DNA of 17,727 nt from NCBI GenBank assembly GCA_030589175.1, contig JAUUWJ010000004.1, positions 1 through 17,727 on the forward strand. The letters run 5' to 3'. The notes below the pieces were generated by a model. That model was given only the letters and a program-made list of their open reading frames with translations. It had not been told where the DNA came from and did no database searches. The DNA is from Actinomycetes bacterium. GTDB lineage: Bacteria > Actinomycetota > Aquicultoria > SURF-47 > JAUUWJ01. The translations under genes and the position numbers were made by a program. The number at the start of each line of letters is the position of its first letter. The stretch's first letter is position 1. Positions 1,061 to 17,658 of this stretch are shown piece after piece.

Positions 1061-1198
1061 GGATTTTGGATGTTTGACATTAGATATTAGAAAGAATAAA
1101 AAAATGATTCTTAAAAAAAGTAAAACCGGACTTTATATATTGGACTTTGAATGCCATAAAATTAGTCCAAAGTCTAACGTCCAAAATCCAATATCTGA
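1061..1198 (+). repeat. Three heptamer arrays, partly in inverted orientation
   Basis: The gap between the KGG genes and the ATP-grasp gene is built from 7-bp units. GGATTTT-type units start at 1061, 1068, 1075 and 1082. CGGACTT/TGGACTT units start at 1127 and 1141. On the opposite strand, AGTCCAA-type units start at 1164, 1171, 1178, 1185 and 1192. The outer parts (1061-1083 and about 1167-1192) are imperfect inverted repeats sharing the phrase ggattttgga and could fold into a long stem. Confidence 0.7.
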
Positions 1199-1204
1199 AT
1201 TTAC

Positions 1205-2110
1205 GTGTATAAATTAGGCATATTAACAAACGATATAAAAAAGGATTTTCACGCGGCTGAATTGCTGGAAAAAGCCAGCAGTAGAGCTGATATTTTTGCT
1301 ATACAGCCTAAAGATCTGGAATTTAAGATCTGCAGAAATGTTCCTGTAATAAAAGCCGGAAATATTAACGCCTATGGCCTTAACGCCGTTTTTGTCAGGC
1401 ACTTAGATAATCGATTTGATACTGAACTTCAATTTGATTTATTAAAGGAGCTACAACAAGCGGGCATTCTTCTAATAAATTCCTATAATTCTCTACAAAT
1501 TGTTGAGAGCAAGGCGATGACCAGCTATCTGCTTGCCCTTTATGGCTTACCGGTAATAGAGTGCTTGGTAACTCAACAAGCTGGTAATGCTTTAAGCTTT
1601 TTCGCAGATTATGGTGATGTAGTTGTCAAACCGCTTTACAGTAATTTAGGTAGCGATTTGTTTCGACTAAAAGATTACAAAAAGCCAAAGAGAATTATCG
1701 TCGACTTAATTGCAAAATACGGCTCTATTTACTTAGAGCGCTATATTAACTCGGGAGGAAAAGATAAAAGAGTGTTTGTAGTAGACGACCATGTAGTTGC
1801 AGCTATAGAACGCAAAGCCCAAAGGGGATTTAAGACAAGCCTTTTTCAAGGAGGCAAAGCCAAGAACATTAGTCTGAGCAAGCAATTGCGCGATATGGCG
1901 ATAAAAGCCAGCCAGATTTTGGGGCTTGATTATAGCGGGGTAGATATAATAACCGAAGATGGCTGCTCTTACATTCTTGAACTTAACGGTTCTCCCTCTT
2001 GGGCCGGCGTTAAAGAAGCAACTGGCAAAGACATAGCAGCTGAAATAGTCTCGGCTACTATCAAGAAGCTGAAAAAATATAATAAAACAGGTCAGTTTAT
2101 ATCAAGTTAG
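1205..2110 (+). CDS. RimK-like ATP-grasp ligase, 301 residues
   Basis: The protein has the layout of RimK-type ATP-grasp ligases, which add glutamate or similar amino acids to a protein or cofactor using ATP. It has an N-terminal pre-ATP-grasp domain starting MYKLGILTND, then VVKPLYSNLGSDLF near 140-153 (ATP lysine K142 and flexible loop), DKRVFVV near 187-193, and the metal/ATP triad D247, E259 and N261 in YILELNGSPSW. Length fits the roughly 290-300 residue family. The start is GTG at 1205 with no Shine-Dalgarno sequence, directly after a heptamer array, so initiation may be leaderless. The substrate (ribosomal protein S6, a pterin or F420-type cofactor, or a peptide) cannot be told from sequence, and no cofactor genes adjoin it. 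Confidence 0.85.
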   Translation: MYKLGILTNDIKKDFHAAELLEKASSRADIFAIQPKDLEFKICRNVPVIKAGNINAYGLNAVFVRHLDNRFDTELQFDLLKELQQAGILLINSYNSLQIVESKAMTSYLLALYGLPVIECLVTQQAGNALSFFADYGDVVVKPLYSNLGSDLFRLKDYKKPKRIIVDLIAKYGSIYLERYINSGGKDKRVFVVDDHVVAAIERKAQRGFKTSLFQGGKAKNISLSKQLRDMAIKASQILGLDYSGVDIITEDGCSYILELNGSPSWAGVKEATGKDIAAEIVSATIKKLKKYNKTGQFISS

Positions 2111-2111
2111 C

Positions 2112-2192
2112 GCAGAGTGCAGAGTGCAGAGTGCAGAGTGCTACAATTCTAACGAACAACGAACACCGACCAACGAACAACGAAGAACGAAA
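2112..2192 (+). repeat. Two adjacent heptamer arrays: GCAGAGT x4 and AACGAAC x6
   Basis: GCAGAGT is repeated four times without error (2112-2139, plus two bases). After a ten-base gap, AACGAAC-type heptamers start at 2151, 2158, 2165, 2172, 2179 and 2186; those at 2151, 2158 and 2172 are exact. The block fills the convergent gap between the ATP-grasp and AarF genes. ACTCTG at 2192-2197 and GTTAG at 2197-2201 are inverse to CAGAGT and CTAAC (2149-2153), so a hairpin serving both convergent transcripts is possible. Confidence 0.9.
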
Positions 2193-2202
2193 CTCTGTTA
2201 GC

Positions 2203-3837
2203 CTACTGCCAATTAATGTTACGCAATAGTTGATAGAGCAAGTAGAATAACAACAGAAGAGACACAGTGCCAAAAATAATAGCGATTACGTAAAGTCCCA
2301 GCAGGAAACTAAGTATTGAAGTAAAACTAAAACCTAAGGCAACCAAAGAAAGAGCGATAGAGTAACCGCTCTTTTTTAGTGTGTCAGAGATTCCTTCTAA
2401 CCCTTCGTGTTGAAAAACTACATGAAACTCGTCCTTTAGAACTTTATCGATGAAGTAGCTGATTTTAGCCGGTAGATTACTTATCAGTTTTGATGACTCC
2501 ATAACGTTACGAGCTATCCTCGACGGTGTATAGTCAGAAGTTATATTTTCGTAAAGCAAAACAGGAGTTAAGTGAATCAAGTAAGAATAATAGTCAAAAT
2601 CAGGGTCGAGTTTTCGTGTCAGATAATCAAGCAACAAGGTTGCTTTTGCTACTTGGCTAAACATAGCCGGTATCTCAACGCTATGTTTTGAAGAGATGCG
2701 GGTGATTTCCAAAAGTGCTTTTCCGATACTTAAATATTTAGGCGGGGCACTAGCGTAATCGGCTATTAAACTACTTATATCGTTCCTGAAAGCAGTGTAA
2801 TTTGTATGCGGTTTTTGATTGCCGATTCTCAAAATAATTTCAGTTGCTTGCTCACCGTCTTTTGAAACGAAATGAAATATTAAAGTAGATATTTCTTTGC
2901 GCATATTTTCATCAAGTTTTCCTATGGAGCCGAAATCTATCAAATATACAAACCCGTTCTTATTAATAAGAATATTTGCAATGTGCGGATCAGCTTGAAA
3001 GAAACCATCAATATATATTTGCTTTGAATACACATCTAAAAGTGCGCTAGCCAACTTTTTTCTATCGAAACTGACTTTTTGAAGTTCTTCAAGCTGGCTA
3101 ATTTTGACGCCCTCAATGAATTCAAGACAAAGTAGATTTTTAGTCGTGTATTGCCAATAAATTCTGGGTATTCTTATGAATTTAAATTCTTTTAAATTTT
3201 CAGCCATTTTAGATGCATTATGGCCTTCGAGCTCAAAGTCCATTTCTTTGTATAAATCTTTTTTGAATTCTCTTACGAGCTCAACCAAATTGTAGGCTTT
3301 TAAGTAAGGAAACCTGTCTTGAAGGATTGAAGCAAAGCTTTGGAAAATATCGGTATCAGTTGAAATTATTTTATTAACGCCGGGACGCAATATTTTCAAA
3401 GCTACAACATCGCCATTTTTTAATTGAGCCTTGTAAACTTGGGCCAGCGAAGCAGATGCTACCGGCTTTTCTTCGATATAATTAAATATTGAATTTATGT
3501 CAGCATTGAGCTCCTCCTCAATCCTATTTCTTATATCGGTAAAGCTGACCGGCATTACTTCGTCTAAAAGTTTTTGCAGTTCATTGATAGCAATGTTTGG
3601 CAGCAAATCACTTCTTGAACTTAAAAGTTGACCTCCCTTAATAAAGGTTGGCCCGAGCTCTTGCAATGCTAATCGCAGATTGATTGCACTTTCTTTCATA
3701 AGCAAAGGGGTAGATGCTTTTTTCGGTAAACGGAAATATTTAATAAAGGAGGCTAAGTTCTTCAGGCCGTATTTAGAAAAAGTGGTAATTATTTTGCGAT
3801 AACGCTTAATATGTCTTAAAGATTTATATTTATTCAT
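2203..3837 (-). CDS. UbiB/AarF/ABC1-family atypical kinase-like protein, 544 residues
   Basis: A member of the UbiB (ABC1/ADCK) family of atypical protein-kinase-like ATPases associated with isoprenoid-quinone or lipid homeostasis. Visible marks are the family KxGQ block as FIKGGQ near 65-70, ASASLAQVYKA with VALKILRPG downstream (ATP lysine), FQADPHIANILI (catalytic-loop equivalent; most members read DPHPGN) and LIDFGSIGKL (DFG metal site). The last 55 residues form two hydrophobic segments, so it is a C-terminally anchored membrane protein. Its ATG lies inside the 3' end of the GGDEF gene with an 8-base overlap, implying translational coupling. The HIAN variant keeps the metal-binding Asn but loses the usual Pro-Gly. 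Confidence 0.93.
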   Translation of the reverse strand: MNKYKSLRHIKRYRKIITTFSKYGLKNLASFIKYFRLPKKASTPLLMKESAINLRLALQELGPTFIKGGQLLSSRSDLLPNIAINELQKLLDEVMPVSFTDIRNRIEEELNADINSIFNYIEEKPVASASLAQVYKAQLKNGDVVALKILRPGVNKIISTDTDIFQSFASILQDRFPYLKAYNLVELVREFKKDLYKEMDFELEGHNASKMAENLKEFKFIRIPRIYWQYTTKNLLCLEFIEGVKISQLEELQKVSFDRKKLASALLDVYSKQIYIDGFFQADPHIANILINKNGFVYLIDFGSIGKLDENMRKEISTLIFHFVSKDGEQATEIILRIGNQKPHTNYTAFRNDISSLIADYASAPPKYLSIGKALLEITRISSKHSVEIPAMFSQVAKATLLLDYLTRKLDPDFDYYSYLIHLTPVLLYENITSDYTPSRIARNVMESSKLISNLPAKISYFIDKVLKDEFHVVFQHEGLEGISDTLKKSGYSIALSLVALGFSFTSILSFLLGLYVIAIIFGTVSLLLLFYLLYQLLRNINWQ

Positions 3838-4780
3838 TACCAGCTTGTCTTTTCTTAGCAGAATTTGTCCAATGCGCTTTTCGTTTTTTGGCTCTAAATA
3901 AAGCTTTATCTGCGGCGTTGTAGATATGGATGGGCGAAGATGTTCCGTTTATGCTAATTCCTATGCTTACTGATATGTTCAAATCGGTCTTAAATTCACG
4001 TATTTTCGAAAAAGCTCCTTCTATTCGTTTTGTAACATCTGTTGCCTGGCTCAGCGAGGTTTCAGGAAGTATTAGAGCGAATTCATCGCCACCCACGCGA
4101 GCGACATAATCGGTATCTCTGCTTTGTCTGGTTAAATAAGATGAAAAATTTTTCAAGTACCTATCACCGGCCAAATGTCCTAATTTATCGTTTAGCTGCT
4201 TGAAGTTGTCTAAATCGATCATAAGCAAAGCAACGTCATGTCCGTATCTTTTAGCTCTTTTCAATTCTCTGTCGAGATTGCTGAAAAAAGCTCTTCTATT
4301 CAAAATATTTGTCAAAGGGTCGGTAGTTGCTTTCTTTTTGAGTTCTTTTGTGAAATTGGCGGTAAAAGTGTCGACAGCGTTTAGAAGTTGCTCGTCAATA
4401 GCTCTATCCAGGCGGCTGTGAAGAAGATATTCATTCTTAGTTATGATTTTGTTTTTTTCTAAATGAAGCAGGATTTGTTCTCTGAGCCATATATATTCCC
4501 TGAATATTTCAGTTAAGGAATAACCCTGATTTAACCGCATTATGCTTTGATCAGATGCCTTGATTCCAAACAACCCTGTTTTTTCGAGCTCTTTTTCGAT
4601 AGGTTTTGTAATATTTTTAGCAACAGCTCGCAAAACAACAGGCATGCCGTCGATTAGATCCAGTTTTGATATGTGATAACTTGATTCTATTTTTTCATCG
4701 GAAAGAACCAACTCTAACCAGCCTTCTATTATGTCCCAGCTATTCTTTTTGATTTGGTTGCTAGCCGTGTGTAGATCCAA
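3830..4780 (-). CDS. Diguanylate cyclase with RsbRD-like N-terminal domain, 316 residues
   Basis: Residues about 150-310 form a GGDEF domain that makes cyclic di-GMP. It begins ATTDPLTNILNRRAF, has the DLDNFKQLND metal block near 189-198 and an intact GGDEF at 230-234. RDTD at 221-224, five residues before GGDEF, is a canonical RxxD inhibitory site, so product feedback is expected. Residues about 1-145 are helical (SIMRLNQGYSLTEIFREY, then LREQILLHL) and resemble the RsbRD N-terminal domain of the RsbR-type stressosome family; this match is by eye. The start is TTG at 4780-4778, supported by AGGAGG (4792-4787) six bases away. It is divergent from an anti-sigma factor and coupled to AarF. Confidence 0.9.
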   Translation of the reverse strand: MDLHTASNQIKKNSWDIIEGWLELVLSDEKIESSYHISKLDLIDGMPVVLRAVAKNITKPIEKELEKTGLFGIKASDQSIMRLNQGYSLTEIFREYIWLREQILLHLEKNKIITKNEYLLHSRLDRAIDEQLLNAVDTFTANFTKELKKKATTDPLTNILNRRAFFSNLDRELKRAKRYGHDVALLMIDLDNFKQLNDKLGHLAGDRYLKNFSSYLTRQSRDTDYVARVGGDEFALILPETSLSQATDVTKRIEGAFSKIREFKTDLNISVSIGISINGTSSPIHIYNAADKALFRAKKRKAHWTNSAKKRQAGNE

Positions 4781-4801
4781 GCAAATCCTCCTACTATGAT
4801 T

Positions 4802-4827
4802 TTTCCATTCAGTCTATGTTTTTAAAC
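4802..4827 (-). promoter_or_regulatory. SigB-like promoter candidate for the GGDEF-aarF operon
   Basis: On the minus strand GTTTAA (4827-4822), 14 bases, then TGGAAA (4807-4802) fits the SigB pattern except for the first base of the -10. A start near 4795 would leave only a short leader covering the AGGAGG site. This is weaker than the two plus-strand SigB-type sites. Confidence 0.33.
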
Positions 4828-4843
4828 GATTTGTTTTACAACA

Positions 4844-4878
4844 ACCAATAACTAACAAGTAATAACTGACTAACAAGT
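4844..4878 (+). repeat. Degenerate heptamer array between GGDEF and anti-sigma genes
   Basis: Seven-base units of the form A(C/G)xAAxA start at 4844, 4851, 4858 and 4865, with a further weak unit at 4872. The array ends in CTAACAAGTTAG (about 4871-4881), a small inverted repeat of CTAAC and GTTAG immediately upstream of the SigB-type promoter at 4883. Confidence 0.5.
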
Positions 4879-4882
4879 TAGC

Positions 4883-4907
4883 GTTTATTAACCAGCAAAA
4901 AGGGAAT
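4883..4907 (+). promoter_or_regulatory. SigB-type promoter (GTTTAT-N13-GGGAAT) upstream of the anti-sigma factor
   Basis: GTTTAT at 4883-4888, a 13-base spacer and GGGAAT at 4902-4907 match the SigB consensus with one deviation in the -35. A start near 4914-4917 gives a leader of about 20 bases that contains the AGGAGGT ribosome site (4926-4932). SigB-type control of an RsbW-like gene is the classic autoregulatory arrangement of rsbV-rsbW-sigB operons. Confidence 0.5.
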
Positions 4908-4936
4908 AAAGGAACCGAATACTACAGGAGGTAGCA

Positions 4937-5362
4937 ATTAGAGCACGATTAGAACTTATGGCGACAAAAAAGAATATTTCTTTAGCCAGAGATTGGGTTT
5001 TTGAAAACTGCCGTTGTTTTGGTCTTAAGGGCAGGAAGCTTATTGCTGTAAAGATTATCACAAGTGAAATTGCAACAAATGTAGTTAAACACGCTTATTC
5101 AAACGGACAACAAAAACAATTTAGTGTCAACATAAAAATAAGCTCAAAAAAGCTTGTGCTTACTGTTGTTGACAATGGTTCCGGTTTTCATAGCAGCAAA
5201 AAAAGCGGTTTCCATTATGGCCTTCTTATTGTACGTTTTTTAGCGGATAGGGTAAGAATTAGCACTTTTGGGTTTCATACTAAAGTCAAAGCTGTTCTTT
5301 TCTTAAATAGAAATGAGGTATGCAAACCAGTTGCACCTAAATTGCGATTGATCAGTAATTAA
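4937..5362 (+). CDS. RsbW/SpoIIAB-like anti-sigma factor (GHKL serine kinase), 141 residues, probable ATT start
   Basis: A small GHKL-type ATPase of the RsbW/SpoIIAB family, which binds an alternative sigma factor and phosphorylates a STAS anti-anti-sigma protein. Motifs are the N box KIITSEIATNVVKHAY (Glu and Asn four apart), the G1 box VVDNGSGF and the G2-like stretch HYGLLIVRFLADRV. The terminal G3 region reads FHTKVKAVLF, without the usual Gly before Thr. The first ATG, at 4958, lies 25 bases past the strong AGGAGGT (4926-4932), too far to use it. ATT at 4937 lies four bases past it and adds (M)RARLEL, giving the strand-plus-helix start typical of this family. No ATG, GTG or TTG lies in frame between. 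No sigma factor or STAS gene is adjacent. If ATT is wrong, the gene is 4958-5362. Confidence 0.85.
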   Translation: MRARLELMATKKNISLARDWVFENCRCFGLKGRKLIAVKIITSEIATNVVKHAYSNGQQKQFSVNIKISSKKLVLTVVDNGSGFHSSKKSGFHYGLLIVRFLADRVRISTFGFHTKVKAVLFLNRNEVCKPVAPKLRLISN

Positions 5363-5424
5363 GAACAAAGTTATCAATTTATTCGGCGTCGTAAAGTCTT
5401 CAACCACAATAAAAATCAGTATTT

Positions 5425-5452
5425 TAAAGTTTTTTTAACTTTTGACCGATAA
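5425..5452 (+). promoter_or_regulatory. Sigma-28 (FliA/WhiG)-type promoter, TAAAGTTT-N12-ACCGATAA
   Basis: TAAAGTTT at 5425-5432 and ACCGATAA at 5445-5452 differ in one base from the sigma-28 consensus TAAAGTTT/GCCGATAA. The spacer is 12 bases rather than the enteric 11. The same 12-base spacing occurs in the perfect site at 10370-10397. Transcription from about 5459 would give a leader of about 34 bases ahead of the gene at 5493. Confidence 0.55.
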
Positions 5453-5492
5453 ATAATTAGAGATGTTATTTAGGTCTGAAAAGGAGCAACTA

Positions 5493-5699
5493 ATGTATAA
5501 AACAAAGTGCCCAGGATGTGGATATGCGCACGTAGTAGTAGGCGATCTTGGCCTGAATTGGGTGCTATATATTTTTAAATGCGATCATTGTGCTTCTGAG
5601 GTTTCCATACGAAGGGTAAATGCCAAAGATGATGAAATAAAAACTTTCAAAAATCAACTTCACAACGTGAATAACGTTGATGACTTTTTAGACCTTTAA
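5493..5699 (+). CDS. Zinc-ribbon miniprotein of unknown function, 68 residues
   Basis: A 68-residue protein starting MYKTKCPGCGYAHVVV, with a second pair in FKCDHCASEVSIRRV. The two CxxC knuckles (C6/C9 and C30/C33) form a probable zinc ribbon. The C-terminal third is polar (NQLHNVNNVDDFLDL) and may be a partner-binding tail. ATG at 5493 is chosen because AAGGAG (5481-5486) lies six bases ahead; an in-frame ATG at 5463 has no ribosome site and sits at the predicted transcription start. The stop overlaps the convergent ccdA stop by 4 bases. It follows a good sigma-28-type promoter, so it may belong to a motility or developmental regulon. Function not recognised. Confidence 0.75.
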   Translation: MYKTKCPGCGYAHVVVGDLGLNWVLYIFKCDHCASEVSIRRVNAKDDEIKTFKNQLHNVNNVDDFLDL

Positions 5700-6406
5700 A
5701 AAAACTGCCAACCTGCTGGAAATAATTTCTGAAGATTTATCGTAATTAATTCAAGTTTGTTGAAAAACAACAATAAGCCCATTATTACCAGCAAAAACCC
5801 GCCTATTTTATTGATTATAGAGCTGTTTTTCTTCAGCCAATCAAAGCGATATTTTGAAACTGCAAAAACCTGACCGGCTATAATAAGTGGCAAACCAAGG
5901 CCTAAGGAATAAGTAAGAAGCAAAGAGCTTCCCAGCAGTGAAGTTTCTGCTTGCGATGCCGTTGCCAGTATCGGAGTTAGGAAGATTCCTATACAAGGTG
6001 TCCAACCAAGGGCAAAAGCCATTCCCATTACGAAACTGGAGCTGTTCTTGGTTCTTTGCAAAAGAGATTGGTTGCTTTTATCTAGAAAACCAATCCTTAA
6101 AAGACCCATAAGGTATAAGCCGGCAAAGACAATAAATAATGCCGCAAACTTAATTAATAAATACTTATAAGTTTTTAGAAGGTAACCTAATAGCGTGCTT
6201 GTTGCACCTAAAATGGTAAAAATCAAGGTAAACCCGGCAACAAATAAAACAAGTGGCACAAGTGTTTTCGTAAAAGACTCGGGTTTTTCATCAGGCGCGA
6301 TGCCGGTTACAAAAGAAACATAACCGGGGATAAGCGGTAAGACACAGGGTGAAACAAAAGAGAAAACGCCTGCTATGAATGCTATCGGAAAACTTACTTC
6401 ACTCAT
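5696..6406 (-). CDS. ccdA: CcdA/DsbD-type thiol-disulfide transporter, 236 residues
   Basis: A polytopic membrane protein of the CcdA (short DsbD) family, which passes electrons from cytoplasmic thioredoxin across the membrane to extracytoplasmic thioredoxin-like proteins. The two redox cysteines are in the conserved contexts FVSPCVLPLIPGYVSF (C21) and GWTPCIGIFLTPIL (C138), with about six hydrophobic segments. Its ATG abuts the TAG of the upstream tlpA-like gene, so translation is coupled and the pair forms one redox module. The 236-residue length is normal. It likely serves cytochrome c maturation or general disulfide reduction; no cytochrome genes are in the window to decide. Confidence 0.93.
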   Translation of the reverse strand: MSEVSFPIAFIAGVFSFVSPCVLPLIPGYVSFVTGIAPDEKPESFTKTLVPLVLFVAGFTLIFTILGATSTLLGYLLKTYKYLLIKFAALFIVFAGLYLMGLLRIGFLDKSNQSLLQRTKNSSSFVMGMAFALGWTPCIGIFLTPILATASQAETSLLGSSLLLTYSLGLGLPLIIAGQVFAVSKYRFDWLKKNSSIINKIGGFLLVIMGLLLFFNKLELITINLQKLFPAGWQFF

Positions 6407-6889
6407 CTAAATGCTATCGATTATTTTGCCTAATTCTACGGCGGTTGTTACGCTCACTATATGTTTATATATTCGGTTATCATTTACTATTATTGTTTCC
6501 GGAACACCCGTCGCTCTATACTTTTTGTAAATTCGGCCATCAACGTCGGTTCCATTAGGGTAAGTTATTTTAAATTTCTTGATAAAAGACTTTGCATCTT
6601 TTTTAGAATCTTTATAGTTGACCCCGATCATATAAACTTTATCTTTGTAACTCTTCCAAAAAGCTTGCAGCTCAGGTGCTTCGTCCTGGCACGGTCCGCA
6701 CCAGGAAGCCCATATGTTTATGACAACGGGTTTGTCTTTGAGTTTGCTAAGGGTCATTTTCTTACCCTCAAATGTTGTTATGGTAAAATCAGGAGCTTTT
6801 TCCCCGGAGGGTTTTTTAAAGGTGGTTAAGAAACCTAAGATTATTATGAATACTACGATAAATATAGCAACGAATTTTACAGATCTCAC
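6407..6889 (-). CDS. TlpA/ResA-like membrane-anchored thioredoxin, 160 residues
   Basis: An extracytoplasmic thiol-disulfide reductase of the TlpA/ResA/DsbE group. An N-terminal hydrophobic anchor (residues about 5-22) without a clear cleavage site precedes the APDFTITTFEGK entry strand, the active site WASWCGPC (C64, C67) and the cis-proline region TGVPETIIV near 127-135. The start is GTG at 6889-6887, preceded by AAGGA at a suitable distance. It heads an operon with ccdA, its probable electron donor. The likely job is to keep cysteines of secreted or heme-binding proteins reduced. Confidence 0.93.
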   Translation of the reverse strand: MRSVKFVAIFIVVFIIILGFLTTFKKPSGEKAPDFTITTFEGKKMTLSKLKDKPVVINIWASWCGPCQDEAPELQAFWKSYKDKVYMIGVNYKDSKKDAKSFIKKFKITYPNGTDVDGRIYKKYRATGVPETIIVNDNRIYKHIVSVTTAVELGKIIDSI

Positions 6890-6926
6890 TTATTATCCTT
6901 TGTTTTTGTCTGCTTATTTACGCGTA

Positions 6927-10824: not shown

Positions 10825-11844
10825 TTATATTATTAGCATGGCATCGCCGAAACTAAAGAAGCGATAGCCTTTTTTTATCGCTTCAGAGTATGCGTTTCTT
10901 ATCCCATCTATGCTGGCGAAAGAGCTGACCATGGCAAGCAGTGTTGAGCGTGGTAGGTGAAAATTAGTAATCATGGCATCAACCGCCTTGAACTTGTATC
11001 CGGGATAAATAAATAAATCGGTTGAGCCTTCCTGCTCTTCATAAAAGTTTTTCTTAGCTAAAGTCTCAAGAACGCGGGCACTGGTTGTTCCAACGGCAAT
11101 TATCCTATGATTGAGATTTCTAGCTTCGTTTATTAGGTCGGCTGCAACTTGGCCAACTTTATAATGTTCGCTATGTATTTTGTGATCTTCCACTTCTTCC
11201 TCTCTAATTGGCTGGAAAGTATCCAGGCCGATTCTCAATGTTATTGACGCAAACTTTACTCCGAAATCTTTTAGCGATTGAATTAGTTTTGATGTGAAAT
11301 GGAGTCCTGCCGTAGGAGCGGCAGCCGATTCTTGTTTTTGAGCATAGACTGTTTGGTAACGCTCAGGGTGCAAGAGGGGCTTTACAATATAGGGAGGTAA
11401 GGGTATTTCGCCTATCTCTTGGAGTATTTTGAGCAACGGCTCTTTGCTTTTAAACAAAACCAAACGCCGGCCATCTTCAAGTTCTTTCAACACTTCCACT
11501 TTCAAATCAGCGTTGAAATCAATTACACTTCCCGGCTTTAAGCGCTTTGCCGGTTTAGCCAAAACTTCCCATTTATTTTCTTCGCTAGGTGATAAAAGCA
11601 AGAGTTCGATACTTGCCTTGGTATCTGTTTTTTGTCCTTTTATTCGCGCAGGAAGAACTTTTGTATCGTTTACTACTAATAAATCTCCAGGCTTTAGAAA
11701 GTCTCCAATTTGAAAAAACTGGTGGTGCCCGATTTGCTTAGTTTTTCTGTTTAAAACAAGCAACTTCGATGAATTCCTAGGCTCAACCGGCTCCTGAGCA
11801 ATTAATTTTTCTGGAAGATTGTAATCTAGTTCATCTGTTTTCAT
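10825..11844 (-). CDS. queA: S-adenosylmethionine:tRNA ribosyltransferase-isomerase (QueA), 339 residues
   Basis: QueA transfers and isomerises the ribosyl part of S-adenosylmethionine onto preQ1 at tRNA position 34, giving epoxyqueuosine. Recognisable blocks are the N-terminal DYNLPEKLIAQEPVEPRNSSKLL, VVNDTKVLPARIKG, AAAPTAGLHFTSKLI, VGTTSARVLETL and the C-terminal TNFHLPRSTLLAMVSSFA. The length is normal. ATG at 11844 has no clear ribosome site. It lies 109 bases downstream of queH on the same strand, so the two genes catalyse consecutive steps and may share a transcript. Confidence 0.97.
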   Translation of the reverse strand: MKTDELDYNLPEKLIAQEPVEPRNSSKLLVLNRKTKQIGHHQFFQIGDFLKPGDLLVVNDTKVLPARIKGQKTDTKASIELLLLSPSEENKWEVLAKPAKRLKPGSVIDFNADLKVEVLKELEDGRRLVLFKSKEPLLKILQEIGEIPLPPYIVKPLLHPERYQTVYAQKQESAAAPTAGLHFTSKLIQSLKDFGVKFASITLRIGLDTFQPIREEEVEDHKIHSEHYKVGQVAADLINEARNLNHRIIAVGTTSARVLETLAKKNFYEEQEGSTDLFIYPGYKFKAVDAMITNFHLPRSTLLAMVSSFASIDGIRNAYSEAIKKGYRFFSFGDAMLII

Positions 11845-11953
11845 GTTCTATTAATGTAACAGAAGAAGAACGAAATTGAACACAAACTGTTAGACGGATA
11901 ATAATTTAAATTTGAAGATAAACACGGGTTATGAAGAAAGTGAAATTTTGTAA

Positions 11954-12505
11954 TTATTCTTTGACTTTTGTTTTCCTGGCTTTTAGTTCAGCCTCTCTTT
12001 CTTCGAGACTGAATTTGCAGCCGCAATATTTTTGCCGGTAGATACCGAGCTCTTTTGCCGTTTTTTGGGCATCTTTGTAATAAGGCCTGAAGTCTTCGTA
12101 ATAGAAAGGGATATCGAATTTTTTTGATGCTGCCGTGCCCATCTCAATTATGAGTTCGTGTTTTTGATATGGTGAGACCAGTAGGGTAGATGTAAAAGTA
12201 TCAAAACCTTTCATTTGCGCAACTCGGGCAGTTTCTTTCAAGCGTAATTCATAGCATTTTTCACAACGCTCAGTTGTATCAAAAGCAACTTTATTTAAGT
12301 ATTGGTCCGGGTTGTAATGGTAGGTAATTAAATCTGTTTTTGCTTCCTCGGCGAATTGCTCGACCCAGGCAAGGCGTTGGTTGAACTCCTCAAAAGGATG
12401 GATATTCGGATTGTAATAAAAAAGTGCGAGCTTATTATCCTGCAATCTTTCAAAAGGTGAAAGCAAACAAGGTGCACAGCATGTATGTAATAATAATTTC
12501 ATCAT
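11954..12505 (-). CDS. queH: Epoxyqueuosine reductase QueH (formerly DUF208), 183 residues
   Basis: QueH reduces epoxyqueuosine to queuosine in tRNA and is the non-homologous replacement for QueG. The family cysteines are present: LLHTCCAPC near the N-terminus (C9, C10, C13), ERCEKCYELRL (C81, C84) and KYCGCKF (C161, C163). The CC and CxxC pairs are the expected iron-sulfur ligands. Length is typical of the single-domain form. It starts MMK, so ATG at 12505 or 12502 is possible; neither has a strong ribosome site. It lies upstream of queA, so the final two queuosine steps are encoded together. The upstream gap holds a good sigma-70 promoter and a heptamer array. Confidence 0.95.
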   Translation of the reverse strand: MMKLLLHTCCAPCLLSPFERLQDNKLALFYYNPNIHPFEEFNQRLAWVEQFAEEAKTDLITYHYNPDQYLNKVAFDTTERCEKCYELRLKETARVAQMKGFDTFTSTLLVSPYQKHELIIEMGTAASKKFDIPFYYEDFRPYYKDAQKTAKELGIYRQKYCGCKFSLEEREAELKARKTKVKE

Positions 12506-12513
12506 AATTTTAG

Positions 12514-12542
12514 TTGTTTGTTGTTCGTTTTTTCGTTGTTCG
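12514..12542 (-). repeat. CGAACAA heptamer array in the queH leader
   Basis: On the plus strand TTGTTTG (12514), TTGTTCG (12521), an 8-base variant (12528) and TTGTTCG (12536) follow each other. On the minus strand these are CGAACAA units, the same as at 8449 and 2151 but inverted. They lie between the queH promoter candidate and its start, so they would be in the mRNA leader. Confidence 0.75.
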
Positions 12543-12557
12543 AATATTTATTTAATT

Positions 12558-12586
12558 ATTATATCGTCAACAGATTGATTTTCTAA
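12558..12586 (-). promoter_or_regulatory. Sigma-70-type promoter for queH-queA
   Basis: On the minus strand TTAGAA (12586-12581), a 17-base spacer and a perfect TATAAT (12563-12558) form a strong housekeeping promoter, starting transcription near 12551. Confidence 0.5.
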
Positions 12587-12604
12587 AATGAAATTCTCGG
12601 TTTT

Positions 12605-12632
12605 GAGCTCTCAGCTCTAAGGTCTGATGTTT
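12605..12632 (+). repeat. Degenerate heptamer array upstream of the MFS gene
   Basis: Four 7-base units start at 12605 (GAGCTCT), 12612 (CAGCTCT), 12619 (AAGGTCT) and 12626 (GATGTTT). An inverted AGAGCT occurs at about 12653-12658. Confidence 0.5.
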
Positions 12633-12699
12633 GAGATAGTAATCGGATTGATTAGAGCTAAACAACTTTTTCGAGTTCAAAATGGGTAAATAGAAAAAA

Positions 12700-13881
12700 A
12701 TGTTAACTCGCGATTTAAAATTGATCTTTGCATCGATTTTTGCCCTTGGTTTTGGCTACGGCCTTTATTTTTATTTGGCGCCTATTTTTGCCAGGCAAAT
12801 AGGAGCAACTGCCGTGCAAGTAGGGATAATCTATACGACTTTTTATTTAGTAACGGGTATTGTTGCTATTCCCGGCGGCTTGTTAGCCGATCGTTATAAC
12901 CTCTACTACGTTATAGTTTTCACCTGGATTTTTGTGATACCCACAGGATTCTTATATTACTTTGCCCAAAGTTGGGTGACTTTAGTTGTTGCCAATGTGT
13001 TTGGTGGCTTGTCAATGATGAACTCACCGGCTATTGCCGTATATATCACAAAAAAAGCGGACCCAAAACACCTGGCCAGATCATTTACCTTAGTCTACTC
13101 TTCTTTTGCTGCGGGAATGATTTTAAGTCCGGCATTAGGTGGCTTTATTGCTCAAATTTACAATATCAGGATAATCTTTTTGATTGCCTCTGCGTTGTTT
13201 GTTATTAGCATTATTTTAATAAGTTTTATTTCAAAAGAAGAGCCGGCACTGTCTAAAGGTGAGGGTCTGTTATTGCCTATACTCAGAGACATCCGTTTTA
13301 TCGGAGCCATACTTTATTTCTCTTTAATATTTTTTATTATTTATATAAGCCAGCCTTTTTTGATGCCGTTTTTGCAAGAATTTCGGGATTTTTCGCTTGT
13401 CCAGATTGGGTTCTTGGGAGCAGTAAGTTCTTTGGGTGCTGCCATAATCGGGCCTTTTATGGGCCACCTTGCTGATATTTACAGTCGTCGTGTCGCTTTG
13501 ATAGGTGCGCTATTTTTTGTATTTTTAGGAGTAGTTATATTCTTAAGTTTTAGTTCATTTGCGGTAATGCTGATAGCTTTTATATTTTTCGGTGTTGTCG
13601 AGGGATTTTACTCATTATCGGGAGCTCTAATAAGTTCGATGCTAACAGATTTACCTTCAGGCCTGGCTTTTGGAGTTTTCAGGTCTATTAGCAACAGCAT
13701 CGCTTTTATCGGTCCTTTTGTGGGTGGTTTATTGTTTGAAGTGGATTTGCGCCTACCTTTTTTTGTTAGCGGTGTATCGGCTTTAATACTGATTATTGCT
13801 ACTTATACTGCTCCATTCTTAAGGGACAAAGGCATGCCGTTTGTTCAGGCAATAGTTAAGAGGCCACCTCCTCCTACTTAG
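12700..13881 (+). CDS. Major facilitator superfamily transporter, 393 residues
   Basis: A 12-helix MFS permease by hydrophobicity. The signature motif A (GxxxDR) is in the loop after helix 2 as GGLLADRYNLYYV, and its echo in the second half is GHLADIYSRRVAL, as expected from the internal duplication. Length fits drug/metabolite efflux-type MFS proteins of about 390-400 residues. The substrate cannot be read from sequence. ATG at 12700 has only a weak GGGT upstream, and initiation may rely on a short leader. The last 8 bases overlap the convergent kinase-like gene. The C-terminus ends in a proline run. Confidence 0.9.
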   Translation: MLTRDLKLIFASIFALGFGYGLYFYLAPIFARQIGATAVQVGIIYTTFYLVTGIVAIPGGLLADRYNLYYVIVFTWIFVIPTGFLYYFAQSWVTLVVANVFGGLSMMNSPAIAVYITKKADPKHLARSFTLVYSSFAAGMILSPALGGFIAQIYNIRIIFLIASALFVISIILISFISKEEPALSKGEGLLLPILRDIRFIGAILYFSLIFFIIYISQPFLMPFLQEFRDFSLVQIGFLGAVSSLGAAIIGPFMGHLADIYSRRVALIGALFFVFLGVVIFLSFSSFAVMLIAFIFFGVVEGFYSLSGALISSMLTDLPSGLAFGVFRSISNSIAFIGPFVGGLLFEVDLRLPFFVSGVSALILIIATYTAPFLRDKGMPFVQAIVKRPPPPT

Positions 13882-14695
13882 ATATTGATAAGCCCTTGTT
13901 GGAGATAACCAAATGCTTTGCAAGTTTAGGGAGATACTCGATTGAGTCATAACAAGCCAAAAGCAATGAGGCCATTGTTGCTAATGCGGCTTCATACTGA
14001 TAAAGCTCGGCTTTTGTCTCAGCTTTGTGGCGTTTGATAGCGGAGGGGCTTACTATATCGAAATCGTTTTTACTATTAATAACTAAGCTACGCTTTGAAT
14101 GGGTTTTTGTGCATATGCTCCTGCTTGTCTTAGCGCTATTATTGTTGTGGGTTATGAATAGGTCGTTTTTCTTGGTATTTGACGACGGTTGCTTAAGAGA
14201 CAAACGAGAGAAAAGAGCTAGGGGGATACTCGAACTTTTGCTTACCTTCTTAATTTCTTTATATATTTTTGGGCTGAAGCTTTCTGTATTTTGACTAACA
14301 TAAAGAATTGCCCGGGCCCCAAGGGCAAGCTTAAGAACCGATTCTAACATTTGCTCTTCGGTAATTATATTAAGGTGACTTTCTGCTTCGCCTTGATGAA
14401 GTTTTTTCCAGCAAAGGGTCGGTTTTAACGGGTCGATTACCAGGCCGGAAAGGTTTACTTTTTCTTTGCGCAATTTTGAGATGATGTCACTGCCGGAAAC
14501 ATCGGGCCCGACTGTGCTTACCAGAGAAACCGTTGCGCCCAAGTTAGTGGCATAAGTAGAAATCAGTGCAGACGAAGCTAGTAGTGTTTGTTTGCCGTTT
14601 TTTCGAAAACTGGGGCATTTTGCGGCCGAAATATCACCGATTACCAGTATTCTTTTTTGCTTGAAATCTTCTAAAACTTTTTGGATTTCTTCCAT
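13874..14695 (-). CDS. Degenerate PfkB/RfaE-type sugar kinase-like protein, 273 residues, probably inactive
   Basis: The backbone resembles the HldE/RfaE N-terminal kinase in the ribokinase (PfkB) superfamily. ILVIGDISAAK matches the LVIGDxxxD start, NLGATVSLVSTVGPDVSGSDIISKL matches the LGAxVxLxGxVGxDxxG block, and DPLKPTLCWKKL matches the PTxxKTR block. The catalytic and anion-hole motif (G-A-G-D) is absent: where it should precede the AALA helix the sequence reads KAETKAELYQYEAALA. The GGAxN substrate motif is also missing, replaced by SSALISTYATN. The middle (about 165-205) is rich in Ser, Asn and Lys. The intact frame suggests a retained pseudo-kinase rather than a fresh pseudogene. The stop overlaps the MFS gene by 8 bases. 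It has no ribosome site; a sigma-28-like element lies just upstream. Confidence 0.7.
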   Translation of the reverse strand: MEEIQKVLEDFKQKRILVIGDISAAKCPSFRKNGKQTLLASSALISTYATNLGATVSLVSTVGPDVSGSDIISKLRKEKVNLSGLVIDPLKPTLCWKKLHQGEAESHLNIITEEQMLESVLKLALGARAILYVSQNTESFSPKIYKEIKKVSKSSSIPLALFSRLSLKQPSSNTKKNDLFITHNNNSAKTSRSICTKTHSKRSLVINSKNDFDIVSPSAIKRHKAETKAELYQYEAALATMASLLLACYDSIEYLPKLAKHLVISNKGLSISK

Positions 14696-14703
14696 TTAAG
14701 GAA

Positions 14704-14730
14704 TTATCGGCTTTTTAGGCAAAATCTTGA
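14704..14730 (-). promoter_or_regulatory. Sigma-28-like promoter candidate, TCAAGATT-N11-GCCGATAA
   Basis: On the minus strand GCCGATAA (14711-14704) is a perfect sigma-28 -10. TCAAGATT (14730-14723) matches 6/8 of the -35 with an 11-base spacer. The start would fall near 14697, two or three bases from the ATG at 14695, implying a leaderless message; this fits the lack of a ribosome site. Confidence 0.35.
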
Positions 14731-14802
14731 ATAATGCCTGGTCGGTGCCTGTATAACTATCGTACTAAACAGTTAATCGATTGCTTTATTTTGCTTATTT
14801 TA

Positions 14803-14832
14803 TTGGACGAACTTGGAACCTCGCTGTAAAAT
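14803..14832 (+). promoter_or_regulatory. Sigma-70-type promoter candidate for the protease-trpS operon
   Basis: TTGGAC (14803-14808) and TAAAAT (14827-14832) are 18 bases apart. A start near 14839 would place GGAG (14846-14849) in a short leader before ATG 14855. The -35 match is poor (3/6). Confidence 0.3.
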
Positions 14833-14854
14833 GAATTGTTCAAATGGAGTAAAA

Positions 14855-15487
14855 ATGAGTAATATCGTAGTTAATTTTCTGATAGTTTTACCAATAATAA
14901 TATTTTCGGTAATTGTACACGAAAATGCCCATGGTATCGCGGCTTTTTTATTGGGCGACAAGACGGCTAAAAACGCCGGCCGTCTGTCTTTAAATCCGAT
15001 AAAGCATATTGATCCCTTTGGCTCGGTGTTATTACCTTTAATGCTGGCATTCACCGGTATGCCTATTTTCGGATATGCAAAACCGGTTCCCATAAATCCC
15101 AGATATTTTAAAGATCAACGAAGAGGAATGATGGTCACGGCTGTTGCCGGTCCGGCCTCTAATTTATTAGTTGCCGCTTTTTTTGCTCAGCTTTACAAGT
15201 TTATTGTTCCTCTATCTTTGTACGGCCAGATTCTTGGTTTCGTTATTTTAATAAACGTAGTATTGGCAGTTTTTAATTTGCTGCCTATACCGCCATTGGA
15301 CGGATCAAAAGTACTGGCCGGTTTTATTCCAAGCAGTATGCTAAAAAGTTATTATCGTTTCGAGTATTTTGCCGAGCGATATTTTATTCTCATATTTTTA
15401 CTAATTATGTTTGTTTGGCCAAGCGTATTACTAAAAGTGCTATTATTATTTATTAATCCCATTCTAAAAATATTAGGAGTCGGTTAA
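14855..15487 (+). CDS. Site-2 protease (M50 metallopeptidase) family membrane protein, 210 residues
   Basis: A compact intramembrane zinc metalloprotease of the M50 family. HENAH at residues 22-26 in the first membrane helix is the HExxH zinc site, and NLLPIPPLDG at 141-150 carries the distal zinc aspartate. GYAKPVPINPRYF near 73-85 and VAGPASNLLVA near 97-106 are family signatures. ATG at 14855 follows GGAG at five bases; an in-frame TTG at 14813 would add 14 polar residues without a ribosome site. Its stop is followed at once by the trpS start, so the two are co-translated. This gene pair is common in Gram-positive-type genomes. The substrate is unknown; regulated cleavage of an anti-sigma factor is a known role of some relatives but is not shown here. 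Confidence 0.92.
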   Translation: MSNIVVNFLIVLPIIIFSVIVHENAHGIAAFLLGDKTAKNAGRLSLNPIKHIDPFGSVLLPLMLAFTGMPIFGYAKPVPINPRYFKDQRRGMMVTAVAGPASNLLVAAFFAQLYKFIVPLSLYGQILGFVILINVVLAVFNLLPIPPLDGSKVLAGFIPSSMLKSYYRFEYFAERYFILIFLLIMFVWPSVLLKVLLLFINPILKILGVG

Positions 15488-16465
15488 TTGGCCAAAAGAG
15501 TTTTAAGCGGGCAACGGCCTACGGGAAGATTACATCTGGGCCATTTGCACGGAACTTTAAATCAGTGGGTCGAGCTGCAGGAAAAGTACGACACATACTT
15601 TTTCGTTGCTGATTGGCATGCCCTGACAACTGCTTATGATGATGTAAGTGCAATAAAGCAGGATACTACCGATATGGTAATCGATTGGCTGGCCGTTGGA
15701 ATCGATCCTGACAAAAGCATAATTTATCGCCAATCGGATTTAGGCGAGACTGCCGAACTTGCTCAATATTTATCGATTCTAACACCGCTTGGCTGGCTTG
15801 AGCGCAATCCGACCTACAAAGAACAGCTAAGAGAAATCAAAGGTAAAGAGATAACAACTCATGGCTTTTTAGGCTACCCGATTTTGCAAACTGCTGACAT
15901 TGCAATTGTTCATGGCGAGATCGTGCCTGTTGGCGAGGACCAGCTGCCTCATTTGGAGCTGGCCCGCGAAATTGTGAGAAGATTTAACAGCTATTACGGA
16001 AAAACATTTGCCGAACCGCAGGCGAAACTTACGAAAGCGCCAAAAGTATATGGTGTTGATGGCCGTAAGATGAGCAAAAGCTATTCAAATGCTATATATC
16101 TTTCCGACGAGCCAGACGTCATAAGAAAAAAAATATCCCAGATGATAACGGACCCGCAACGGAAAAGAAGAGTTGACCCCGGCGACCCGAATGCTTGTAC
16201 TGTTTTTGATTTACATCTTATATACTCGAAAGACTTAAATATTATAAAAAAAGAATGTCGAGAGGCTTTACGCGGATGCGTTGAATGCAAGGAGGAACTG
16301 GCAGAACGGGTAGTTGAGTCGCTGAAAGATTTTCAAGACAGGAGAAACTCTTTTGTGGAAAATCCTTTGCTGGCCAAAGAAGTTTTAGAAAGAGGAGCCG
16401 AAATCGTAAAGCCGATTGCTGAAAATACTCTGCACGAAGTCCGCAAGAAACTTAATTTAGATTAG
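15488..16465 (+). CDS. trpS: Tryptophanyl-tRNA synthetase with Fe-S-type cysteine motif, 325 residues
   Basis: A class I aminoacyl-tRNA synthetase that charges tRNA-Trp. The HIGH motif reads HLGH (16-19) in QRPTGRLHLGH, and KMSKS is at 194-198. The tryptophan-pocket region includes GDQ-like VGEDQLPHLELAREI. Four cysteines, C237, C257, C264 and C267, are arranged C-x19-C-x6-C-x2-C. This closely matches the C-x22-C-x6-C-x2-C pattern that binds a [4Fe-4S] cluster near the anticodon-binding region of Thermotoga maritima TrpRS. The start is TTG at 15488, directly after the protease stop, with AGGAG at 15475-15479. Confidence 0.97.
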   Translation: MAKRVLSGQRPTGRLHLGHLHGTLNQWVELQEKYDTYFFVADWHALTTAYDDVSAIKQDTTDMVIDWLAVGIDPDKSIIYRQSDLGETAELAQYLSILTPLGWLERNPTYKEQLREIKGKEITTHGFLGYPILQTADIAIVHGEIVPVGEDQLPHLELAREIVRRFNSYYGKTFAEPQAKLTKAPKVYGVDGRKMSKSYSNAIYLSDEPDVIRKKISQMITDPQRKRRVDPGDPNACTVFDLHLIYSKDLNIIKKECREALRGCVECKEELAERVVESLKDFQDRRNSFVENPLLAKEVLERGAEIVKPIAENTLHEVRKKLNLD

Positions 16466-16474
16466 ATTTAATGA

Positions 16475-16502
16475 GGGTATCGGGTCTAGGGTCTCGTGTC
16501 TT
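16475..16502 (+). repeat. GGGTCTA-type heptamer array
   Basis: Units start at 16475 (GGGTATC), 16482 (GGGTCTA), 16489 (GGGTCTC) and 16496 (GTGTCTT), ten bases after the trpS stop. Confidence 0.75.
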
Positions 16503-16521
16503 GAAAATCTCTGTCTTTTAC

Positions 16522-16556
16522 ACGAAAGTCGAAATACGAACCACGAAACACGATTT
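16522..16556 (+). repeat. ACGAAAC-type heptamer array
   Basis: Units start at 16522, 16529, 16536, 16543 and 16550: ACGAAAG, TCGAAAT, ACGAACC, ACGAAAC and ACGATTT. The unit is close to the AACGAAC/CGAACAA family at 2151, 8449 and 12514. Confidence 0.75.
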
Positions 16557-16560
16557 ACTC

Positions 16561-16588
16561 TTGAAGATTGAAGATTCCTGATTGAAGT
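16561..16588 (+). repeat. TTGAAGA heptamer array
   Basis: TTGAAGA at 16561 and 16568, a diverged unit at 16575 and TTGAAGT at 16582 keep exact 7-base phase. It is the third different array in one 205-bp gap. Confidence 0.75.
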
Positions 16589-16632
16589 TTGTTCCCCTCC
16601 TTGCTTGCCCAGCTTAATAGGGCCATCGACTA

Positions 16633-16661
16633 TTGTTAAATTCGTCTGACCTCTCTAAAAT
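16633..16661 (+). promoter_or_regulatory. Sigma-70-type promoter for the FNT gene, implying a nearly leaderless mRNA
   Basis: TTGTTA (16633-16638), a 17-base spacer and TAAAAT (16656-16661) match 4/6 and 5/6. Transcription would start near 16668, three bases before the ATG at 16671, which has no ribosome site. Confidence 0.45.
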
Positions 16662-16670
16662 AACCTTGTT

Positions 16671-17531
16671 ATGTCATTTAGAGCACCCGCAGAAATTGCC
16701 AAGGAAATAACCACGGTCGGCACGAAAAAAGCCAAGATGTCGTTTTCCAATACGCTTATATTAGCGATATTTGCCGGCTTTTATCTCGCGTTTGCCGGTC
16801 AACTCATGATTGTCGTAACTCATGACGGTCTGGCGAACTTTGGCGCTGGGATAATGCGTTTTATCGGAGGCAGCGCTTTCTCACTAGGCTTGATTTTGAT
16901 AGTTCTTGCCGGTGCCGAGCTTTTTACCGGCAATTCTTTGTTGACAGTGGGTTTATTAGAGAAGAAATTCGACCTAAAAGCTCTTTCGAGGAATTGGGCA
17001 ATAGTTTATCTTGGCAACTTCATAGGATCTATTCTTATCGTAGTTCTCATATACTATTCAGGTTTGTGGCAATTAGCTAGCAACGCGGTTGGAATAAAAG
17101 CTTTAGATATCGCGGTTTCGAAAGTAAAACTCGATTTTTGGACCGCAATGCTTAGAGGAATCGGAGCTAACTGGCTCGTTTGCATCGCAATATGGCTGGC
17201 GATAAGCGGTCGAAGCGGTATCGAAAAAATCTTGGGAATTTATTTTCCGATAATGGCTTTTGTGGTTTTAGGCTTTGAGCATAGCATAGCCAATATGTTT
17301 TTCATCCCGATGGGTTTGTTCTTAAAGGGTTCATTAAGTGTTGCCGGAGTTTCGCAACTAACCGTATCCTCAATGTTTCTAAATAACTTGATTCCGGTAA
17401 CGATAGGAAACATTATCGGCGGAGTTGCATTTGTTGCCTTTCCCTACTGGTTTGTTTATTTACGCAAAAACAAAATGCCGGCTCAATTAACTCCTAAACT
17501 GGTTGAAAAAGTCGTAGTTCAGACTAAATAA
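16671..17531 (+). CDS. Formate/nitrite transporter family (FNT) channel, 286 residues
   Basis: A pentameric anion channel subunit of the FocA/NirC family, carrying formate, nitrite or a related small monovalent anion across the membrane. Six hydrophobic helices are evident. Signature blocks are the N-terminal MSFRAPAEIAKE, AGAELFTGNSLL (the Omega-loop region), GANWLVCIAIWLA and GFEHSIANMFFIPMG, the last holding the central-pore histidine. Length is typical. Formate versus nitrite cannot be separated by eye, and no formate or nitrite enzyme gene adjoins it. It appears monocistronic, flanked by heptamer arrays on both sides. Confidence 0.95.
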   Translation: MSFRAPAEIAKEITTVGTKKAKMSFSNTLILAIFAGFYLAFAGQLMIVVTHDGLANFGAGIMRFIGGSAFSLGLILIVLAGAELFTGNSLLTVGLLEKKFDLKALSRNWAIVYLGNFIGSILIVVLIYYSGLWQLASNAVGIKALDIAVSKVKLDFWTAMLRGIGANWLVCIAIWLAISGRSGIEKILGIYFPIMAFVVLGFEHSIANMFFIPMGLFLKGSLSVAGVSQLTVSSMFLNNLIPVTIGNIIGGVAFVAFPYWFVYLRKNKMPAQLTPKLVEKVVVQTK

Positions 17532-17536
17532 ATGAT

Positions 17537-17566
17537 AGATATCAGATACCAGATATTAGATATCAG
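17537..17566 (+). repeat. AGATATC heptamer array after the FNT gene
   Basis: Units start at 17537 (AGATATC), 17544 (AGATACC), 17551 (AGATATT) and 17558 (AGATATC), five bases past the FNT stop. AGATATT also occurs as a unit at 1082, 16 kb away. Confidence 0.8.
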
Positions 17567-17630
17567 AAAAACTAATTCTCGAAGCGACAGCTAGAAGTAA
17601 GATGTCTTTTAAGTTTTCTTTCGAATCCCC

Positions 17631-17658
17631 AGGTCCGAGATTTTAGGTTCGAGCCCCG
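17631..17658 (+). repeat. Weak heptamer array (AGGTCCG/AGGTTCG)
   Basis: Four diverged units start at 17631, 17638, 17645 and 17652; the best pair is AGGTCCG and AGGTTCG, 14 bases apart. The rest of the last 160 bases shows no open frame I can support. Confidence 0.35.

Follow-up and report, generated by a model that had tools for sequence, protein, structure and literature searches.

Seven-base repeats between the genes of an actinomycete draft genome, some of which resemble arms of small scattered hairpin elements

The DNA analysed here, referred to as the window, is a stretch of 17,727 nucleotides (contig JAUUWJ010000004.1, positions 1 to 17,727, forward strand) from the draft assembly GCA_030589175.1 of an Actinomycetes bacterium. 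Its longer intergenic gaps contain tandem arrays of degenerate 7-nt units (heptads). These repeats are real and are found genome-wide. They have one period in common, some of their families are dispersed, neighbouring arrays are often inverted complements of each other, and homologous copies differ in length by whole heptads. Some of the arrays, and perhaps the majority, have the look of arms belonging to small hairpin elements scattered through the genome. The reading favoured here, to which a probability of about one half is given, is that heptad arrays are arms, whether whole, solo or decayed, of small hairpins dispersed in the genome and similar to REPINs (doublets of repetitive extragenic palindromic (REP) sequences) or miniature inverted-repeat transposable elements (MITEs), within which heptads expand and contract.

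Period-seven arrays in intergenic DNA

Over the 2,009 intergenic bases of the window, identity at lag 7 was 0.367, compared with 0.292 in dinucleotide shuffles (z 7.6). Harmonics were seen at lag 14 (z 5.5) and lag 21 (z 2.9), with no signal at lags 5, 6 and 8–13 (z -1.0 to 1.5 at lags 5, 6, 8, 9 and 10), and the lag-7 identity of the coding DNA was 0.253. The genome (label G000) is a 1.18-Mb draft in 276 contigs, estimated as 71% complete, of which the window is contig 72. An unselected sample of 16 contigs, chosen by number (74.9 kb, including 8.5 kb of intergenic DNA), contained 20 period-7 arrays versus 0.17 in shuffles, none at periods 4, 5, 6, 8, 9, 10 and 12, and one at period 11. After addition of the window and of five contigs selected for carrying CGAACAA arrays (12.4 kb of gaps), the count was 33 versus 0.38 expected. 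The initial annotation had described tandem heptamers in most of the longer intergenic gaps, an observation borne out in the window and in the unselected contigs alike, and it was right that this is not random simple sequence. The stretches named there carry lag-7 identities of 0.47–0.83; for the weakest of them, 4844–4878 (P 0.007), 12514–12542 (P 0.017) and 17631–17658 (P 0.007), as for the others, the P values are too favourable because the stretches were picked by eye. Called open reading frames (ORFs) in the 22-contig set (111 kb) held seven further arrays, two at most 12 bases from an ORF start, two within a single ORF of 81 amino acids, two of an A/G-rich, lysine-type composition and one lying 67 bases inside an ORF call.

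For comparison, 35 other genomes of the same class were used, none of them from the same family as G000, with larger samples of the relatives G003 (420 kb; 99% complete) and G020 (342 kb); a further relative, G015, is 97% complete. Period-7 arrays numbered 38 in G003 (0.65 expected) and 25 in G020 (0.5 expected). Seven was the commonest unit length in G000 (periods 4–12 compared) and in G003 and G020 (periods 4–15), period 13 yielding 8 arrays and period 8 yielding 5 in G003. Several sampled genomes of the class had lag-7 z values near 0. In 80 named loci from other bacteria, picked by their LepA gene only, period 7 was again on top with 27 arrays versus 2.4, ahead of its harmonic, period 14 (19 arrays), and of period 8 (9 versus 2.2); the observation is therefore not special to this lineage.

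Short tandemly repeated repetitive (STRR) sequences of cyanobacteria are tandem heptamers between genes. The likeness to them proposed in the initial annotation is fair, heptanucleotides being cited in Calothrix (PMC4692102), and the excess extends more widely than the cyanobacteria, as seen in the 80 named loci.

Recurring units and inverted neighbours

Within G000, 10 pairs of arrays belonged to the same unit class, compared with 1.2 expected after permutation of letters within units. Among 17 pairs of neighbouring arrays, 10 were within two mismatches of reverse complementarity (2.4 expected) and two were similar in direct orientation (2.35 expected). At a lower threshold, summed over five sets with partly shared loci, the counts were 32 of 75 for inverted pairs (10.9 expected) and 16 of 75 for direct pairs (11.2 expected). 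As neighbouring arrays tend to be inverted complements, imperfect hairpins are possible. Pairs of CGAACAA units were found on six contigs and on both strands, and in two cases only a short gap separates them from an ATTGGTT- or GCTGGTT-type array at most two mismatches from their complement.

Whether array gaps share more than their arrays was assessed with the arrays masked; an unmasked comparison (array gaps with dispersed relatives, 25/32 in G003 and 17/26 in G000) was set aside because arrays match arrays. In masked G003, a dispersed relative was found for 19 of 30 array gaps versus 58 of 188 other gaps (P 0.0009).

A dispersed hairpin element with heptads in fixed places

One family, labelled R1, is a dispersed element in which heptads occupy fixed positions. 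Its core motif, CACTAAATTCTAAATNCTAAACAATATC, was found 23 times in G000 when up to 3 mismatches were allowed, and neither the reversed pattern nor any of 55 other genomes gave an occurrence. Copies align over about 120–160 nt, 17 of the 20 that were fetched from end to end; these 17 are dispersed and have shared, sharp ends, past which the flanks look unrelated. The 5' arm reads AAATYCTAAGCACTAAATYCTAAATYCTAAACAATATC and the 3' arm ends with GGATTTAGATATTAGGATTTAGGATTT. All 16 copies tested for folding had negative z values (-2.2 to -7.1, mean -4.8). With a covariance model built from the 17 copies, matches were obtained in 8 of the 36 class genomes, representing five families, and in none of the other 28; many were reported on both strands because the element is palindromic. 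Genomes with R1 matches had higher lag-7 z values than those without (7 versus 14 sampled genomes; Mann-Whitney P 0.005), in a comparison whose samples differ in size, on which z depends, and which leaves G024 outside. A GC-rich hairpin (CCCGCCTGCC..GGTAGGCGGG) lies within the 3' arm of one element copy (locus L265, 1489–1669), as if inserted.

Gain and loss of whole heptads

G003 and G020 are sister species within a single genus; the DNA that could be matched between them (117 kb) is 95% identical. Of 235 gaps considered, 58 could be matched and 13 of these contained an array, five in both species, six in G003 only and two in G020 only. Blocks were gained or lost between flanks of 98.8–99.2% identity. 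Nine of the 18 clean gap indels of 4–30 nt were multiples of 7 (P 3.5e-4), a size range set after inspection of the list and with several indels falling in one gap. A dispersed element delimited by TTGGTTACAC..GTAATTATAT and present in one genus points the same way. Seven copies were chosen by eye among the results of a loose pattern search: three have three GTTCACN units, two have four and one has a single unit, and the seventh is 14 nt longer than its orthologue. The inner lengths were 16, 30, 30, 30, 36, 37 and 44, of which one departs by a single base from steps of seven.

Arrays of GTGAACN units in the genus labelled g4 were collected by a search treating all columns alike, after which those with a consensus starting GTGAAC were kept. 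Column 7 was variable in 14 of 20 arrays, with 3.6 expected, and adjacent units were alike at this column in 12 of 33 cases, with 12.3 expected. A free seventh position holds for GTGAACN in this genus only. The unit itself was detected in 5 of 56 genomes, namely three of genus g4, that of locus L037 (Saprospiraceae) and that of L092 (Bacteroidales), with 0 of 56 for the reversed control. Locus L244 (1501–1701), from the same genome as L037, has three long, near-perfect GTGAACC arrays with the unit of the unrelated genus g4, such as recent slippage would make. GAAC, the half-site of LexA boxes in Gram-positive bacteria, recurs at 7-nt intervals both in the GTGAACN arrays of g4 and in the CGAACAA arrays of G000.

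Evidence against dispersed hairpins as the general source

A number of results count against the view that most arrays are arms of dispersed hairpins. The first concern the plain arrays. In G000, array gaps did not fold better than the remaining gaps (mean z of -0.15 for 18 array gaps and of -1.10 for 36 others), and a hairpin or terminator function for every array was not supported. With arrays masked, dispersed relatives were found for 3 of 25 array gaps and for 6 of 44 other gaps, so that the masked comparison in this genome gives no support to plain arrays being solo or decayed arms; the test is a harsh one because heptad arms are lost under the mask as well. Eight window gaps were tested for folding, of which only 530–620 and 1054–1204 fold well, the other six having z values between -1.9 and 1.3.

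Further points concern the elements themselves. The R1 model has no match in the window at E values up to 1, and R1 was found in 0 of 50 survey genomes under stricter filters and with no positive control. A single dialect across phyla was rejected on this count together with the five GTGAACN genomes. A target-site duplication was not found at 16 R1 copies (flank match 3.69 versus 3.39, sd 0.27). The R1 covariation term was +0.8, which gives no support for a conserved RNA fold, and a covarying RNA structure was discarded. No enzyme could be tied to the elements in searches that covered Y1_Tnp as the only transposase family, and RVT_1. When the family filter for GTGAACN was loosened, column 7 was variable in 17 of 27 arrays and adjacent units were alike in 19 of 43 cases (14.4 expected); position-specific constraint was not supported as a general rule, invariant columns numbering 2.28 versus 2.27 expected and a second test being mixed. 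Finally, near-exact tandem copies account for only two of the nine heptad-step indels. Given this, the post hoc size range and the shared gaps, the list demonstrates whole-heptad steps and not clean duplication.

Slippage, regulator sites and other explanations

The best-surviving alternative is that the arrays are plain heptanucleotide simple repeats arising by polymerase slippage at each site, seven being favoured by how much DNA the polymerase holds, an idea of Mrazek et al. 2007 (PMC4679880, PMC4692102). It is a tentative and somewhat unlikely explanation. It accommodates the strict period of 7, the heptad-step indels, the existence of perfect arrays (for example GCAGAGT x4.3) and the long GTGAACC arrays, nearly perfect, that the L037 genome contains, and it agrees with the want of extra shared flanks in the masked G000 test. 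It is also compatible with the failure to find mutS1 in any of the 36 class genomes, compared with its detection in 11 of 14 controls. Lack of this repair gene may permit slippage; as sole cause it was rejected, being insufficient alone because it is class-wide while lag-7 z differs inside the class, with several genomes near 0. Slippage acting independently at each site further leaves unexplained why unit classes recur, why neighbours are inverted complements and why a dispersed element has heptads in fixed places. The seventh column of the g4 GTGAACN arrays differs between adjacent units as by chance, and seven of the nine heptad-step indels are not near-exact copies, both of which count against it.

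The initial annotation had offered replication slippage or a selected helical spacing as the origin of the arrays. Gain and loss in steps of seven are supported by the indels and by element copies with one, three or four heptads, but independent slippage at each site would leave the recurring classes, inverted neighbours and fixed heptads unaccounted for. Seven base pairs are not a turn of B-DNA. Slippage or helical spacing accounts at best for half of the observation.

A rather improbable alternative is that the arrays are selected multi-site binding arrays of a DNA- or RNA-binding regulator, kept as opposite-strand pairs. Opposite-strand pairs of 3–5 tandem 7- or 8-nt repeats in Geobacter metallireducens are described as putative sites of a global regulator (PMC2700814), and the g4 arrays keep a GTGAAC core with the seventh base free. 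Arrays follow no common rule of position, however: they were found in 0 of 12 divergent gaps in G000 (P 0.012), 1 of 33 in G003 (P 0.089) and 4 of 41 in G020 (P 1), and a fixed place relative to genes was discarded. Each genome moreover has many unit sequences, and 8 of the 13 matched array gaps have an array in one sister species only.

Two last explanations are very improbable: products of a DRT10-like, tandem-repeat-writing reverse transcriptase, which would suit tandem repeats in which one position is partly free, DRT10 being described as a maker of tandem-repeat DNA (PMC12632851), are largely refuted for this class by the lack of any RVT_1 match in G000, G003, G015 and G020, all of which have heptad elements, and an assembly or binning artefact, for which the incomplete, fragmented draft, contig breaks at repeats (C214) and a run of N at a hairpin in G020 might be adduced, is countered by the same period in G003, G020 and the 80 named loci of other assemblies.

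REP-associated tyrosine transposases (RAYTs) were considered as mobiliser and rejected, since Y1_Tnp is common whether or not R1 is present and the G000 copy is not flanked by elements. Matches to Y1_Tnp were present in 29 of 36 class genomes, and none was found in G015, one of the genomes that R1 matches. The gaps flanking the lone match of G000 (a 71% complete genome) lacked an array, an R1 match or similarity to the genome's own loci that were examined. In locus L270 (1245–1772), a RAYT-like Y1 transposase gene is bordered by GGGACGGTCC at one end and by GGACCGTCCC at the opposite end. A search of 14 sources with Rfam gave five matches at gathering score (T-box, 5S rRNA, group I intron, PyrR and CRISPR repeat), none of them in the window and none over the listed arrays; the group I intron lies in G003 (L160, 3414–3698).

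Arrays and hairpins of the window

The region 1061–1198, which the initial annotation had taken as a single array, proved to be two inverted arms of one hairpin. The element spans 1055–1202, with heptad arms at 1061–1103 and about 1165–1198, 37-nt arms that are 73% complementary, and a fold z of -5.34. It begins with AAAAGCGGA, separated by one base from the stop codon at 1051–1053. Partial matches were found on contigs C251, C38, C140 and C259; the first two were aligned and fold with z values of -6.3 and -6.1. The C38 copy starts with AAAAAGCGGA and ends with TCCGCTCTT, its arms being mostly 6- or 7-bp helices interrupted by single mismatches, and the C251 copy ends with TCCGCTTTT.

An imperfect hairpin of inverted repeats at 530–620 consists of AGTGA-type units at a spacing of about 8 bases. 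As RNA it folds at -28.1 kcal/mol (z -5.85), which none of 200 shuffles equalled. Its 8-base-spaced part at 546–610, absent from the initial annotation, has an identity of 0.42 at lag 8 versus 0.31 at lag 7. Hairpins of 8-nt modules stand beside heptad ones here and in locus L177 (15783–16097), which may be compared with the octanucleotide sites of Geobacter metallireducens.

The remaining arrays are given in plus-strand reading unless stated otherwise. In a convergent gap, a perfect GCAGAGT x4.3 array at 2112–2141 is followed by a CGAACAA-type array at 2151–2191 with a match on C64 (L120) that takes in the flank TACAATTCT. A degenerate AACCAAT-type array of period 14 lies in a divergent gap at 4840–4878, with similar arrays on L138, L139 and L267. 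A GAATAGT/GAAAAGT array lies at 8360–8392. Further CGAACAA-type arrays lie at 8449–8474 (matches on C26, C84 and C95) and, read on the minus strand and containing an indel, at 12513–12542 (83% match on C84). A degenerate AGCTCTN array lies at 12605–12632.

Three arrays adjoin farther along: GGGTCTN at 16475–16501 (GGGTCTCGGGTCTAGGGTCTCG on L122, minus strand), ACACGAA-type at 16520–16553, resembling the right arm of a TCGTRNN/ACGAANN hairpin family, and TTGAAGA at 16561–16588, which adjoins the ACACGAA-type array in the C200 copy as well. C200 has an 81% match to 16516–16591, and the ACACGAA arm of this stretch is also present on C113, C176 and C178. These four copies have a TCGTRNN-type left arm where the window has the GGGTCTN array. 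The C200 hairpin reaches a fold z of only -1.8, and the window copy has a z of 1.0. A nearly self-complementary AGATATC array at 17537–17567 has matches on C16 (L130) and C182 (L124), and 17631–17658 is a possible, weak decayed array (lag-7 identity 0.52, P 0.007).

At the contig end, 17681–17727 is a dispersed, non-heptad repeat, 94% identical to C214:5456–5504 near the end of that contig. Repeats of this kind probably break the assembly.

All 10 window genes that were scanned are ordinary: KGG, RimK-type ATP-grasp, ABC1 kinase, GGDEF, histidine-kinase-like ATPase, LepA, QueH, M50 peptidase, class I W/Y tRNA synthetase and formate/nitrite transporter. The closest named matches of LepA, at 61–62% identity, are records of Clostridia bacterium AS08sgBPME_225 and Actinobacteria bacterium UBA912. 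Two KGG-like genes adjoin at 577–867 (the one scanned) and 901–1053, and 698–855 matches contig C275 at 69%.

Discussion

In the favoured reading, each genome would contain several sequence families behaving in the manner of REPINs or MITEs. Their arms would be built from 7-nt modules, of which, in some families, 5–6 nt would pair with the other arm and 1–2 nt would be free. Elements would spread as units into intergenic DNA through a putative mobiliser, and after arrival they would grow and shrink by whole heptads through slippage or template switching, in a class in which mutS1 was not found. Many unit sequences with a single period would be the outcome. The mobility of the elements and their manner of moving are inferred, and so is the descent of plain arrays from solo or decayed arms. 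A much bolder extension, which we regard as a long shot, is that heptanucleotide repeats in many phyla are footprints of one kind of mobile hairpin, whose arms would have to be 7-nt modules (5–6 paired, 1–2 free) since its copying enzyme would handle one module per step, the sequence families being lineage dialects.

A period-7 excess in bacteria is already published: heptanucleotide repeats were found to be over-represented in many bacteria in 2007, with slippage as the guessed cause (PMC4679880, PMC4692102). The long simple sequence repeats of Mrazek et al. 2007 share with the present arrays a dominant period of 7, an intergenic location and a patchy distribution across taxa; there they are treated as simple repeats, whereas here neighbouring arrays form inverted complements and dispersed hairpins occur among the families. 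The TAACTGA repeats of Beggiatoaceae (PMC4679880) are likewise intergenic tandem heptamers, with one main unit in place of the many units and inverted pairing seen here. The closest published likeness found is that of the paired 7- and 8-nt sites of Geobacter metallireducens (PMC2700814), dispersed opposite-strand pairs of 3–5 tandem units at variable distance; those are putative regulator sites with other units, whereas here homologous copies differ by whole heptads.

In behaviour, the closest likeness is to REPINs (PMC3116915). REPINs and REP elements are dispersed, extragenic inverted doublets with hairpin potential, as here (PMC3116915, PMC3733652), and the foot of a REPIN hairpin carries a GTAG or CGTC tag (PMC3733652). 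The arms described here are longer and composed of heptad modules, and no RAYT gene is tied to the elements. MITEs are short dispersed elements with inverted-repeat arms (PMC4853749). The present elements agree with them in these respects and in showing no internal gene, and differ in that no target-site duplication was found at the 16 R1 copies. Dispersed mobile hairpins are not named as a source of heptanucleotide repeats in the open-licence literature searched.

Why a repeat length of seven is favoured has been debated since at least 2007 (PMC4679880). Should many arrays prove to be arms of dispersed hairpins, the question moves from the footprint of the polymerase to the element and to what mobilises it, and this can be tested through empty sites and heptad numbers in sister species, G003 and G020 among them. 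Repeats counted in draft genomes may include element arms along with simple repeats, and assemblies can be broken at such hairpins. In some bacteria an excess of seven-base repeats has long been a puzzle, and hairpin elements of this kind are one possible source of it.

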